Assembly: GCF_006517175.1 (NCBI RefSeq)
Contig: NZ_CP041186.1
Coordinates: forward strand, 2,073,001-2,137,000
Length of the DNA stretch: 64,000 bases
Reading direction: 5' to 3'
From: Persicimonas caeni
GTDB taxonomy: Bacteria > Myxococcota_A > Bradymonadia > Bradymonadales > Bradymonadaceae
The notes beneath the pieces were generated by a model. It was given only the letters and a program-made list of their open reading frames with translations, was not told the DNA's origin and ran no database searches. How positions within the stretch are numbered: the stretch's first letter is position 1; every line of letters begins with the position of its first letter. Shown here piece after piece: positions 5,589 through 9,679 of the stretch. The translations under genes and the position numbers were made by a program.

Positions 5589-7121
5589 ATGCGCCCTTCC
5601 CTACACATCTTGTCATTCGCCCTGTTCGTCGCCGCTTGCCTGATAGGTTGCAGCGACGAAGACGACGCGCCCGCGCCCACGATCAAAGGGCGCACCGAGG
5701 TGCCCGAAGGCGCCGACGGCAAGCCGTGCATCACCGACGACGACTGCAACAGCGAGTCGTGCTTGATGCAGTCGCACGGGTTTCCCGACGGCCACTGCAC
5801 CACCTTCAACTGCGATCGCCTCGACTGCAGCGGCGAAGCGTCGGTATGCGCCGCCCTGTGGGACGGCACGCCCGCGTGTTTGCTCCCGTGTGAGGCCGAC
5901 GAAGAGTGTCGCGACGGCTACACCTGCCAGTCAGTCTCCGGCCAAGCCGAGTCGACCTGCCTGCCGGCGGGCGGCGGAATCGATCCGGCCGAGGCCTTCG
6001 AGCCGACGCGCGATCTGCTGGCGTTCGACTGCGCGCCCACCGAGATTGGCCAGGACGATATCTACGGCCCAACATATACCTTCACCTTCGACCTCGGCGC
6101 CGAGGCCCAAAGCTTTTTGATGGTCCCCATGGTCGCCGAGGGCGTCGTAGTGCCGCTGTCGATGCAGACACCGAGCACGTCGGTCGACCTGCAGACCGAT
6201 TACCGCCACCACAACGCACGCCTGGGCGAGCTCGACTTCATCCCCGATTTGGCCGAGACGGGCACCTTCGGCCAAGTCGGCCTCGACTGGCCCATCTTGG
6301 TGCCGTATGCCCCCCAATACGCCGATTATGTCGAAGCCGGGGGCACCTACGAGCTGACCGTGGCGGCCGACACAGCCACGCCTTGTCTGTATGTCGTCGA
6401 GGGGAAGACGGGCACCACCATCGATCTGAATATCTACTTGGTCGGCGCCGGCGGGCGCACCGCCGAGGACGCCAAGGACGATCCCGATCTGGCCGCGGTC
6501 TTCGCCCGCGTCGACGAGATCTATGCCCAGGCGGGCATCGAGTTGGGCGAGGTGCGCTTCTTCGACGTGCCCGCTCACGTGCGCGAGACCTTCCGGGTGC
6601 TGCGCTCGCAGGTCGACGTCTACAAGCTCACGGCTTACGGTGAGCCGCCCGACGAGACGCTCGACGGCCACCTGTCGGTCGATCTCTTCCTGGTCGACGA
6701 CATGCAATTCCACGGCGCGAACGTGCTGGGCATCTCCGCCGGCGTCCCCGGCGCGGCGGGCCTGCACGGCAACCCGCGCAACGGACTGGTCTTCCAGACG
6801 GTCGATCTCGGCGCCGACAACGACCACGTCGCCCACATCCTCGCCCACGAGGTGGGCCACTACGTCGGGCTTCGCCACACCACCGAGGTCTACAAGGGCA
6901 CGAACACCGACGCCGAGCGCCAGATCGACCGCATGATGGGCGTGGTCGACCCGATCGAGGACACGGCGATCTGCGAAGAGATCCAGCAAACGGGCTTCGA
7001 TTGCCCCGACGCCGATAATTTGATGTTCCCGGCCGCCCCACCCGCGCATCTAAGTATCGACCCGCGCCTGACCCCCGGCCAAAAGGCGGTTTTTCAAGCC
7101 AGCCCCTTGGTCAAACGGTGA
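5589..7121 (+). CDS. Lipoprotein metalloprotease of metzincin type
   Basis: Predicted surface or periplasmic zinc protease of 510 residues. A signal peptide ends in the lipobox CLIGC (Cys21). A Cys-rich stretch follows (about 45-125, many CxxD/DC pairs). The middle holds a beta-rich region without clear match. The catalytic motif HEVGHYVGLRH has His420, Glu421, His424 and His430, which is the metzincin HExxHxxGxxH pattern, and NLMFPAAPP downstream could be the Met-turn. Family placement (M43-like or another metzincin) is uncertain. It is monocistronic, divergent from plsX, and would fit extracellular protein degradation in a predatory lifestyle, but that is inference. Confidence 0.8.
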   Translation: MRPSLHILSFALFVAACLIGCSDEDDAPAPTIKGRTEVPEGADGKPCITDDDCNSESCLMQSHGFPDGHCTTFNCDRLDCSGEASVCAALWDGTPACLLPCEADEECRDGYTCQSVSGQAESTCLPAGGGIDPAEAFEPTRDLLAFDCAPTEIGQDDIYGPTYTFTFDLGAEAQSFLMVPMVAEGVVVPLSMQTPSTSVDLQTDYRHHNARLGELDFIPDLAETGTFGQVGLDWPILVPYAPQYADYVEAGGTYELTVAADTATPCLYVVEGKTGTTIDLNIYLVGAGGRTAEDAKDDPDLAAVFARVDEIYAQAGIELGEVRFFDVPAHVRETFRVLRSQVDVYKLTAYGEPPDETLDGHLSVDLFLVDDMQFHGANVLGISAGVPGAAGLHGNPRNGLVFQTVDLGADNDHVAHILAHEVGHYVGLRHTTEVYKGTNTDAERQIDRMMGVVDPIEDTAICEEIQQTGFDCPDADNLMFPAAPPAHLSIDPRLTPGQKAVFQASPLVKR

Positions 7122-7178: not shown

Positions 7179-7206
7179 TTGACAGCCACGCCAGAGCGAC
7201 TAAACT
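7179..7206 (+). promoter_or_regulatory. Strong sigma70-type promoter for the 7.2-kb RNA
   Basis: TTGACA (7179-7184), 16-nt spacer, TAAACT (7201-7206). The -35 is a perfect consensus. The expected start at about 7213 coincides with the first base of the long stem in the RNA below. Confidence 0.7.
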
Positions 7207-7212
7207 TGGACG

Positions 7213-7312
7213 TGGTTCTCGGAGGACGGTCGACATGCAATCCCCCCAGGCCGTTAGCCAGGTACATGTCCTATGGCTACGCGTTACGTCCTCTGAGAAC
7301 CATTTTCTTTTT
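7213..7312 (+). ncRNA. Candidate structured small RNA (~100 nt), unknown family
   Basis: The 326-base gap between two genes has no convincing ORF but carries a complete small-RNA architecture. Bases 7213-7228 pair with 7287-7302 in an uninterrupted 16-bp stem (one G-U). The stem is followed at once by ATTTTCTTTTTT, so it can act as its own terminator. Inside, 7255-7260 (TAGCCA) pairs with 7274-7279 (TGGCTA), and the 13-nt loop contains CATGTC (7265-7270), exactly complementary to GACATG at 7232-7237, allowing a pseudoknot. A C-run (TCCCCCC, 7241-7247) may be unpaired and could contact Shine-Dalgarno sequences. I see no match to SRP, 6S, tmRNA or RNase P motifs. Confidence 0.7.
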
Positions 7313-7314
7313 TC

Positions 7315-7338
7315 AGCGCCCCGTTGAGGGCGCTTTTT
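7315..7338 (+). terminator. Intrinsic terminator downstream of the small RNA
   Basis: GCGCCC and GGGCGC arms around CGTTGA, followed by TTTTTT. It is a second terminator behind the one formed by the RNA's own long stem and insulates the following sulfatase-like gene. Confidence 0.8.
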
Positions 7339-7447
7339 TGTTTCTTGCCATCGCGCTCCCAACTTCAACACATCAACGAATAGAATTTCTGCGCCCCATC
7401 TGATACTCAAGTAGGTCGGTAAAACTCCAACGCTTTCTCGACCGACC

Positions 7448-9679
7448 ATGAATCATATCCTGACCGGAGTTCGCGCCGGTGTTATCTCCGCCCTGGCGCT
7501 GACCCTGTGGAGCTTCTTGGCCACCAGCGCTGCGATGGGTGACGCCAGCGAAGCGACCGGCTTCTACTATATTCTGACTGCGTTCGGGCTGCTCGGGCTG
7601 CCCCAGGTGATCTTCGGGGCCGTCTTGGGCGTGCTCGCCGCCGGATGGGCGGCGTTCTTGGGCGAGGACTTCCGCGCCCGGCTCGACAAACCGGCCGTCG
7701 ATCACCGCACCGCTGCCAGCCTGTTGACCGGCCCGATCTTGGCCGGCTTGGTCGGCGCGGGCGTCGGCGCGCTGCACTTTGCAGTGACCGGCAACTTCGT
7801 ACGCAAGATCTTCCAGACGCTCGGCCTCGGCCTGGGCGGCGCGGTGATCGCCGCCGGCGCGCTTCTGGCCGCCCCGCTCTTCTTTGGCGGCGCGCTGGGA
7901 GTGGTCCGCAAGCTCTTTCCGGCGCGTGACGCCGAAAAGTCGGTGCCCCGGGCGACGATGACCGTCGTGGGCGTCTACGCCATCGGCCTCATCGGCGGGC
8001 TCATCTTCGGCTATCAGTACGCCGCGGGCCTGCAGGTGTGGAGCGCGACGCTTCTGCGCATGGGCTTCGCGGCGATGCTGCTCACGCCGATCTTGATGGG
8101 CGCAATGCTCAAGTTCGACGTCGATCGCATCGCCTGGCGCATCGGCGTGCCGGTGGCCGGCGCGGTCGCCGCGGTGGTCTGCTTCTTCGGCGCCTTCGGT
8201 TGGTCGAGTTCGACCCCCGAGATGCGCCAGGCGACCACGCGCCACTCGGCGCTGCTGTCGACCACCGCCAAGGCGCTCGAGCCGCTGGCCGATCGCGACG
8301 GCGACGGCTTCGCCAGTGGACTCGGCGGCATCGACTGCGACGACTCCAACAAGAACGTCTACCCGGGCGCCAAGGACGTGCCCAATAACGGCATTGACGA
8401 GGATTGTTCGGGCGCCGACGCCGAGCCGCCCAGCGGCAACGACCACCCGTCGCGCAAGATCATCGGCCTGGCCCTCCAGGCGGCCGAAAACGCCGCCAAG
8501 AACGAGGCCGAGAATATCCCCGAGCCGCCCAAAAACCTGGTCTTCATCCTGGTCGACACCCTTCGCCAGGACCACATGGGTTACGCGGGCTACGAGCGCG
8601 ACACCACCCCCAACATCGACAAGATCGTCGACGAGTCGGTGGCCTTTATGGACGCCTACGCCCCCAGCCCGCACACCCCGCGCAGCATCCCGCCGCTCTT
8701 CTTCAGCCGCTACCCCAGCCGCATGACCTGGCGCGGGGCGAGCTGGAACTACCCGGAGATCTTGCCCGAAAACCTGAGCATGTTCGAGGTGCTCGACGAG
8801 CAGGGCTACTTCGGCATCGGCATGACCAGCCACTTCTACTTCGAGGCCGACCAGGGCATCCGCCAGGGCTTCGACGAGTGGGACAACTCCGGCTCGGGCA
8901 CCATCGCCGAGTCCAACGACGACATCGCCGCGCCGCGCATCTGGAAGAAGACCGAGCCCACCATCGAGCGGCTCGCCAAGCAATGGAAAGAGAACGAGGA
9001 GCCATTCACCCTCTTCGTGCACCTCTTCGAGCCGCACGCGCGCTGGATCCACCACGACGAGTATAGCTTCGGCAAGGGCGGCAAGACCGCGCGCGAGCGC
9101 CACATCAACAACTACGACTCCGAGATCGCCTACGTCGACGCCTACGTCGGCCGAATCGTCGACAAGCTCAAAGAACAAGGCCTATACGACGACTCGGTGC
9201 TCGTCATCACCTCCGACCACGGCGAGGGCTTCAACGAGCACGGCTACTTCTTCCACGGCCAGACGCTCTACAACGAGATCATCAACGTACCGCTCATCAT
9301 CCGCGTGCCCGGCTGGCACAACCGCAAGGTCGAAGGCCCCGTCAGCCTCGTCGACGTCGCCCCCACGCTGCTCGAGCTCTTCGGCGTCACCATCCCCCAG
9401 GAGTTCCAGGGCGTCAGCCTCGTCGAGACGATGCTCGGCCGCTCGGGCGTGCCCGACCGACCGGTCTTCGCCGAACTGCTCCCCTACACGAGCTGGAAAG
9501 AAAAACACCAGGCCATCATCCACGGCGACGAGAAGTTCATCTACGTCGTCACCAACGGCATCGAAGAGTACTACGACCTGGCCGAAGACCCCGGCGAGCA
9601 GAAGAACCTTCGCCAGGAACGAAAGGAGCGCGCCGACAAGCTCAAAAAGCGACTCCAAGAGTTCATGCAGGGCAACTGA
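7448..9679 (+). CDS. Membrane-anchored sulfatase/phosphoglycerol-transferase-like enzyme
   Basis: Alkaline-phosphatase-superfamily enzyme of 743 residues. Residues 1-260 hold about seven membrane segments. A short Asp-rich motif (about 282-320, DRDGDGFASGLGGIDCDD and DEDCSGAD) of the MopE/thrombospondin-3 metal-binding kind follows. The catalytic domain starts near 360 (NLVFILVDTLRQDHMGYAGY) and contains SPHTPRSIPP, SDHGEGFNEHG near 590 and GQTLYNEIINVPLIIRVPG. Where classical sulfatases have the Cys or Ser turned into formylglycine, this protein has Thr (about Thr410), as in LtaS-like phosphoglycerol or phosphoethanolamine transferases. The active site is likely periplasmic. A small inverted repeat (GGTCGGT/ACCGACC) abuts the ATG at 7448. 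Confidence 0.8.
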   Translation: MNHILTGVRAGVISALALTLWSFLATSAAMGDASEATGFYYILTAFGLLGLPQVIFGAVLGVLAAGWAAFLGEDFRARLDKPAVDHRTAASLLTGPILAGLVGAGVGALHFAVTGNFVRKIFQTLGLGLGGAVIAAGALLAAPLFFGGALGVVRKLFPARDAEKSVPRATMTVVGVYAIGLIGGLIFGYQYAAGLQVWSATLLRMGFAAMLLTPILMGAMLKFDVDRIAWRIGVPVAGAVAAVVCFFGAFGWSSSTPEMRQATTRHSALLSTTAKALEPLADRDGDGFASGLGGIDCDDSNKNVYPGAKDVPNNGIDEDCSGADAEPPSGNDHPSRKIIGLALQAAENAAKNEAENIPEPPKNLVFILVDTLRQDHMGYAGYERDTTPNIDKIVDESVAFMDAYAPSPHTPRSIPPLFFSRYPSRMTWRGASWNYPEILPENLSMFEVLDEQGYFGIGMTSHFYFEADQGIRQGFDEWDNSGSGTIAESNDDIAAPRIWKKTEPTIERLAKQWKENEEPFTLFVHLFEPHARWIHHDEYSFGKGGKTARERHINNYDSEIAYVDAYVGRIVDKLKEQGLYDDSVLVITSDHGEGFNEHGYFFHGQTLYNEIINVPLIIRVPGWHNRKVEGPVSLVDVAPTLLELFGVTIPQEFQGVSLVETMLGRSGVPDRPVFAELLPYTSWKEKHQAIIHGDEKFIYVVTNGIEEYYDLAEDPGEQKNLRQERKERADKLKKRLQEFMQGN

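Follow-up and report, generated by a model that had tools for sequence, protein, structure and literature searches.

The window, which is the whole 64,000-nucleotide stretch of Persicimonas caeni DNA that was analysed, contains a putative small RNA gene on the forward strand (Table 1), situated between genes for an M57-like metallopeptidase (5589-7121) and a sulfatase (7448-9679). The first-pass annotation had described this gap as free of genes, which it is throughout 7179-7347, since the flanking genes end at 7121 and start at 7448. The promoter that it had proposed, TTGACA and TAAACT boxes separated by a 16-nt spacer, is also present and is the sole 10-of-12 promoter match within 20 kb. Transcription is predicted to start at about 7212-7214, coinciding with the beginning of the closing stem P1, about 6 nt past the -10 element. 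P1 and the U-rich tract behind it constitute a predicted first terminator, and the second terminator annotated at 7315 was found as a stem followed by six Ts. A conserved trailer motif, absent from the earlier description, follows this second terminator.

Table 1 Features of the small RNA locus in the window (positions of the window, forward strand read 5' to 3').
Feature	Position	Strand	Evidence and remarks
-35 element TTGACA, sigma70-type promoter	7179-7184	+	Sequence; TTGAC common in upstream regions of relatives
-10 element TAAACT (TATAGT-like in relatives)	7201-7206	+	Sequence and relatives
P1 closing stem, 5' arm	7213-7226	+	Reaches 7228 in the window copy; 7/7 modelled P1 pairs change on both sides
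P2 hairpin, 5' arm CGGTC	7227-7231	+	98.1% of cells paired
Pseudoknot strand GACATG, P2 loop	7232-7237	+	7/7 pseudoknot pairs with two-sided changes
C-run CCCCCC, P2 loop, between U and A; putative effector	7242-7247	+	C5-C7 in every copy
P2 hairpin, 3' arm GGCCG	7249-7253	+	Pairs with 7227-7231; alignment
P3 hairpin, 5' arm TAGCCA	7255-7260	+	99.6% of cells paired; 6/6 pairs with two-sided changes
Pseudoknot strand CATGTC, P3 loop	7265-7270	+	Complements 7232-7237; covariation, permutation test
P3 hairpin, 3' arm TGGCTA	7274-7279	+	Alignment
P1 closing stem, 3' arm	7289-7302	+	Sequence, alignment, predicted pairing
First U-rich tract after P1 (with P1, the first terminator)	7303-7313	+	Sequence, T enrichment
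Second intrinsic terminator, 7-bp stem (7315-7334) and T-run (T6)	7315-7340	+	Present in many relatives, not in all
Trailer motif TTTCTTG after the last T-run	7341-7347	+	Recurs in tails of the family

In the predicted architecture P1 encloses P2 and P3, two hairpins joined by 6 to 9 bp between their loops; the C6 run and one of the pseudoknot strands lie in the P2 loop. The arms 7213-7228 and 7287-7302 can pair over 16 bp including one G-U, in line with the uninterrupted 16-bp stem originally described. In the family consensus the inner positions 7227-7228 were however assigned to P2, because the corresponding P2 pairs are invariant in 43/43 copies, so that P1 is really about 14 bp long. The 6-bp hairpin TAGCCA/TGGCTA and the complementarity of GACATG and CATGTC, both noticed in the first-pass annotation, stood, whereas hairpin P2 had escaped it. 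The fold of the window copy is considerably more stable than expected from its composition (z = -4.9; none of 200 shuffled sequences was as stable), and energy folding alone gave z < -2 in 30 of 46 copies. P1 arms with about 11-20 bp of predicted pairing were found in nearly all copies.

DNA searches revealed a second copy in the P. caeni genome itself and, among 96 relatives, copies mainly within the same taxonomic family. Covariance models built from 19 copies (R1) and 42 copies (R2) extended this to 43 copies in 21/21 genomes of the family, covering 13 genera with 1-6 copies each. Four of these genomic copies are those of P. caeni (C1:2080212, 1730099, 3329854 and 144252), the one at 144252 being an example of weak copies, with a poor promoter match and no fold signal of its own. 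One copy each was found in four genomes from a single genus of another family of the same class, and among named genomes the RNA occurs in Lujinxingia vulgaris and in a Lujinxingiaceae MAG. The models detected no copy in 32 other members of the class, and none in one family of the same order (f2) or in four further families of the class (f3, f5, f6 and f7). In a wider sample of the phylum (379 genomes) they returned only scores near chance, and the matches inspected had neither promoter nor tail; weak matches in three of these genomes (G259, G268 and G317) resembled chance, having no promoter boxes and no U-tract around them. A pattern scan of contigs from outside Bradymonadales and relatives likewise gave only chance-level model scores. 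In one genome (G003:C1:967647-967869, locus L211), two copies lie in tandem 135 nt apart (967647 and 967782), with different pseudoknot sequences each paired within its own copy.

A first alignment of 19 sequences contained two-sided changes in 15/25 base pairs against 5.6 in shuffles. In the later alignment of 43 copies (A5), fitted by the model to P1, P2 and P3, 22 of the 25 pairs change on both sides, 93.6% of cells pair, and the covariation score is 0.676, compared with 0.227 for shuffled alignments and at most 0.12 when the partners are slid. Such changes affect 7/7 pairs of P1, 2/5 of P2, 7/7 of the pseudoknot and 6/6 of P3; the outer C-G and G-C pairs of P2 do not vary and its inner pairs covary. 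The pseudoknot was no part of that model, so its covariation does not stem from the fit. The pseudoknot claimed earlier from the window copy thus covaries at every one of its seven pairs over the 43 copies, and the comparison with homologous loci that the first-pass annotation had suggested, in search of lost stems or non-compensatory changes, found all four helices covarying. A permutation test on 25 non-redundant copies agreed with this result: the complementarity between a copy's own P2 and P3 loops averaged 6.42, against 4.20 (sd 0.21) when partners were re-dealt, a value reached in none of 100,000 permutations. Diverged copies keep the pseudoknot with unrelated sequences, such as CTCGACA/TGTCGAG (G003:C4), GACCGTCAT/ATGACGGTC in genome G015 and, as a further pair, GGCATGAA/TTCATGTC. 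G-U pairs are frequent in P2 and the pseudoknot; read from the opposite strand they would become A-C mismatches, which identifies + as the coding strand.

The signals for transcription recur in the family. Of the 46 copies, 28 have TTGAC at 30-46 nt upstream of the core, and 25 of 41 non-redundant upstream regions have it at the right distance where about 0.7 (0.68) would be expected; the distance from the end of the -10 box to the core is about 2-7 nt in most copies whose promoter is clear. The fraction of T in the 20 nt past the core is 0.41, compared with 0.25 further on. Behind the last T-run, 23/46 copies have the trailer TTTCT[T/A]G, with the fuller pattern T-tract-N-TTTCT[T/A]G, an enrichment of roughly 100-fold over flanking DNA, where the motif occurs 0.004 times per 100 nt per strand. 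The same trailer was also observed behind the terminator of one tRNA-Met gene (L219, tRNA at 155-229). It may for this reason mark the ends of stable RNA units generally, possibly as a termination or 3'-processing signal in this lineage. An own promoter, an own terminator and an intergenic position, as generally expected of a trans-acting sRNA, are thus evident at the locus and in its relatives.

Searches against Rfam 15 gave 0 matches above the gathering threshold in the whole window and in 20 loci with diverse copies, and loose thresholds yielded only chance-level scores at the locus itself. The proposal of a new structured small RNA is borne out by this result and by the homologues with compensatory changes in 21/21 family genomes. 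That promoter, stem and terminator agree beyond chance, as had also been argued, finds support in the same compensatory changes throughout the taxonomic family. Judged from sequence comparison, the window RNA belongs to a family of stand-alone structured small RNAs, with a predicted length of about 90-135 nt, that had not been catalogued before, and we are nearly certain that this family is real, under selection and autonomously transcribed. To the known RNA families it would add one that covaries exceptionally clearly, the pseudoknot fully included, and that is present in every sampled member of a predatory family. A full-text search of a collection of open-access papers retrieved none mentioning both Bradymonadales and small RNA, and in this host family of predatory bacteria we found neither described small RNAs, in that collection, nor Hfq.

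The conservation of the locus could in principle have other origins. Downstream of the RNA and in the same orientation is the sulfatase gene (PF00884), 148 nt away in the window and 82-368 nt away in 11 relatives, and P1 with its U-run resembles a terminator, as would suit a cis-acting riboswitch or attenuator in the sulfatase leader whose ligand decides whether P1 terminates transcription. This synteny is however that of a single orthologue: the sulfatase stands behind the main orthologue only, the genes downstream of the other copies are unrelated and about half of them lie on the opposite strand, so that a consistent position ahead of functionally related same-strand genes was not observed. 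Moreover, P1 is followed by a second terminator in the window and in many relatives; nearly all copies can form P1, and an alternative antiterminator was not seen. Because the paralogues adjoin unrelated and in about half of the cases convergent genes, we regard cis-regulation as improbable. The gene itself (7448-9679) and its counterparts in 11 relatives (e.g. L207:3359-5584) encode a conserved sulfatase-like protein that is hydrophobic in its N-terminal part and has a metal-binding motif of the MopE type; they are syntenic with the RNA across genera.

Even less credence is due to a leader mRNA for a tiny peptide. In several relatives GGAGGA precedes an ATG that opens MHSPQAVSQVYVL. The ATG of the main clade does lie inside the pseudoknot strand, about 9 nt past GGAGGA, and opens a similar frame, but about a third of the copies have no start codon there, insertions of 1-2 nt ahead of the C-run shift the frame in others, which mostly refutes a coding function, and the peptide becomes unrecognisable in diverged copies; RNA pairing accounts for the conservation. 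A DNA-level or mobile element with no RNA gene is just as hard to credit. It would accord with the multiple copies, including the tandem pair, but the main copy is vertically syntenic, the RNA occurs in every genome of the family, and the G-U pairs and promoter position make sense only for an RNA from the + strand. No plasmid, phage or viral contig matched, and a 15-mer pattern scan of viral contigs gave only chance-like hits.

A strikingly conserved part of the RNA is a run of five to seven cytosines in the P2 loop, found in every copy amid loops, stems and kissing sequences that vary. In the predicted fold of the window copy the run is unpaired, and a GGGG able to pair with it internally occurs in the core of only 6/46 copies. 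We took the C-run as the effector because it is kept in all copies amid this turnover, with no conserved partner in the RNA. The paralogues' neighbours, unrelated and about half of them convergent, point to action in trans. An invariant C6 run on a freely varying kissing-hairpin scaffold would be a sharp and testable design. Hfq (PF17209) was absent from 19/19 relatives in searches whose positive controls were found, and an Hfq-dependent sRNA was rejected on this ground. We propose that the RNA acts in trans, that its pseudoknotted scaffold protects it in the absence of Hfq while keeping the C-run exposed, and that the C-run, as the working part, would most likely pair with G-rich stretches of mRNA, either Shine-Dalgarno-like or in 5'-UTRs, and block translation. 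The first-pass annotation had likewise suggested mRNA targeting from the free C-run. The paralogous copies would be driven by different promoters and therefore respond to different signals. As a whole, this explanation, a stand-alone Hfq-independent trans-acting sRNA with the C-run as antisense effector, is the one towards which we lean, with moderate confidence; that the C-run acts on mRNA as an antisense, and not as a protein-binding site, we consider about as likely as not. The family would open a way to study gene regulation in the predation of Bradymonadales and the possible workings of structured sRNAs where Hfq is missing.

In searches for targets, GGGGGGA before ATG was enriched in the P. 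caeni genome (94 vs 33 in the control), and also in a genome that has no copy of the RNA (G023; 252 vs 74). Because the enrichment is equal in RNA-negative and RNA-positive genomes, it gives no indication of G-run targets at the scale of the genome. Genes with a G-run site had no conserved orthologues across three genera, with the exception of one weak lipoprotein pair. A hint of lipoprotein enrichment did not reach significance by a fixed criterion (4/20 vs 1/19; p = 0.34), the RNA-negative control being small, with 8 coding-like genes. Putative lipoprotein genes with GGGGGGA before ATG were noted at eight loci (L332, L334, L352, L369, L390, L395, L411 and L416), a possible target class.

That no convincing mRNA targets emerged from the G-run-site search is one of the observations favouring an RNA that binds protein, in which the C-run and the rigid kissing-loop scaffold would form a site for, e.g., a C-preferring KH, cold-shock or Rho-like protein, titrated or scaffolded in the manner of CsrB or 6S. 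The conservation of a whole three-dimensional scaffold, beyond a mere seed, despite extreme sequence change, and the several copies per genome point the same way. A single C-run per RNA would nevertheless provide little avidity for titration, no candidate protein was found and 6S RNA exists separately in these genomes; we consider protein binding a serious though less probable account. A more far-reaching possibility, which we put forward as speculative, is that the family represents a new class of core regulatory RNA, whose kissing-hairpin scaffold displays the C6 tract for a partner of its own (either a protein that binds C-tracts or a G-tract of ribosomal or other RNA) and replaces Hfq-type sRNA regulation in this predatory lineage, the diverged paralogues making it a multi-channel regulator.

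By analogy with characterized RNAs, antisense action on G-rich mRNA sites would be the best-precedented mechanism and protein binding its main rival. The closest parallels in design are the sRNAs of low-GC bacteria with UCCC or other C-rich motifs, namely LhrC, RsaE, FsrA and RNAIII (PMC4132741). They are about 110 nt long, have their own promoters and are encoded in several copies per genome, five in the case of LhrC; a C-rich single-stranded loop motif pairs with the Shine-Dalgarno region of envelope-protein mRNAs, as shown for LhrC and lapB (PMC4132741). The window RNA shares with this group its size, several copies, own (here predicted) promoters and a C-rich motif in a loop that is unpaired in the predicted fold. 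The UCCC-motif sRNAs are in contrast open stem-loops of Gram-positive hosts with no pseudoknot scaffold, and UCCC is repeated in LhrC, whereas the RNA described here has one C6 run within a P1-closed kissing-hairpin fold, belongs to a Gram-negative predator and has a target pairing that is proposed. Common descent was rejected, as no similarity and no Rfam match were found. On sequence and predicted structure, the family thus resembles C-rich-motif sRNAs in design and is not a member of any of them by descent.

The C6 run could likewise act on G-repeats, as RepG does in Helicobacter pylori. The pairing loop of RepG is reportedly C/U-rich, and we know of no pseudoknot in that RNA. RepG is single-copy and epsilonproteobacterial, and no homology to the window RNA was found (no Rfam match). 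RepG is reported to target homopolymeric G-repeats in the leader of an mRNA (PMC8295292). Pxr of myxobacteria is a regulatory sRNA with paralogues, also present in bacteria without hfq and reported only from myxobacteria (PMC5684412, PMC5568312); a sigma54 promoter precedes it, and its structure is a series of three stem-loops (PMC5684412). The window RNA is similarly paralogous, from the same phylum and from a lineage without detected hfq in 19/19 relatives. It differs in having two hairpins closed by a long P1 and a sigma70-type promoter, and identity with Pxr was rejected on this P1-closed two-hairpin pseudoknot and on the TTGACA/TATAGT-like boxes. Like 6S RNA (RF00013), it is a small, presumably stable RNA whose 5' and 3' ends are joined by a long stem, which in 6S RNA encloses a single-stranded bubble and here kissing hairpins. 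Identity with 6S RNA was rejected because RF00013 matches lie at other coordinates in 11/21 genomes (e.g. G000:C1:3295452) and the locus itself is unmatched. These 6S candidates (G000:C1:3295452-3295646 and those of ten other genomes) score mostly below or near the gathering cut-off and are thus diverged.
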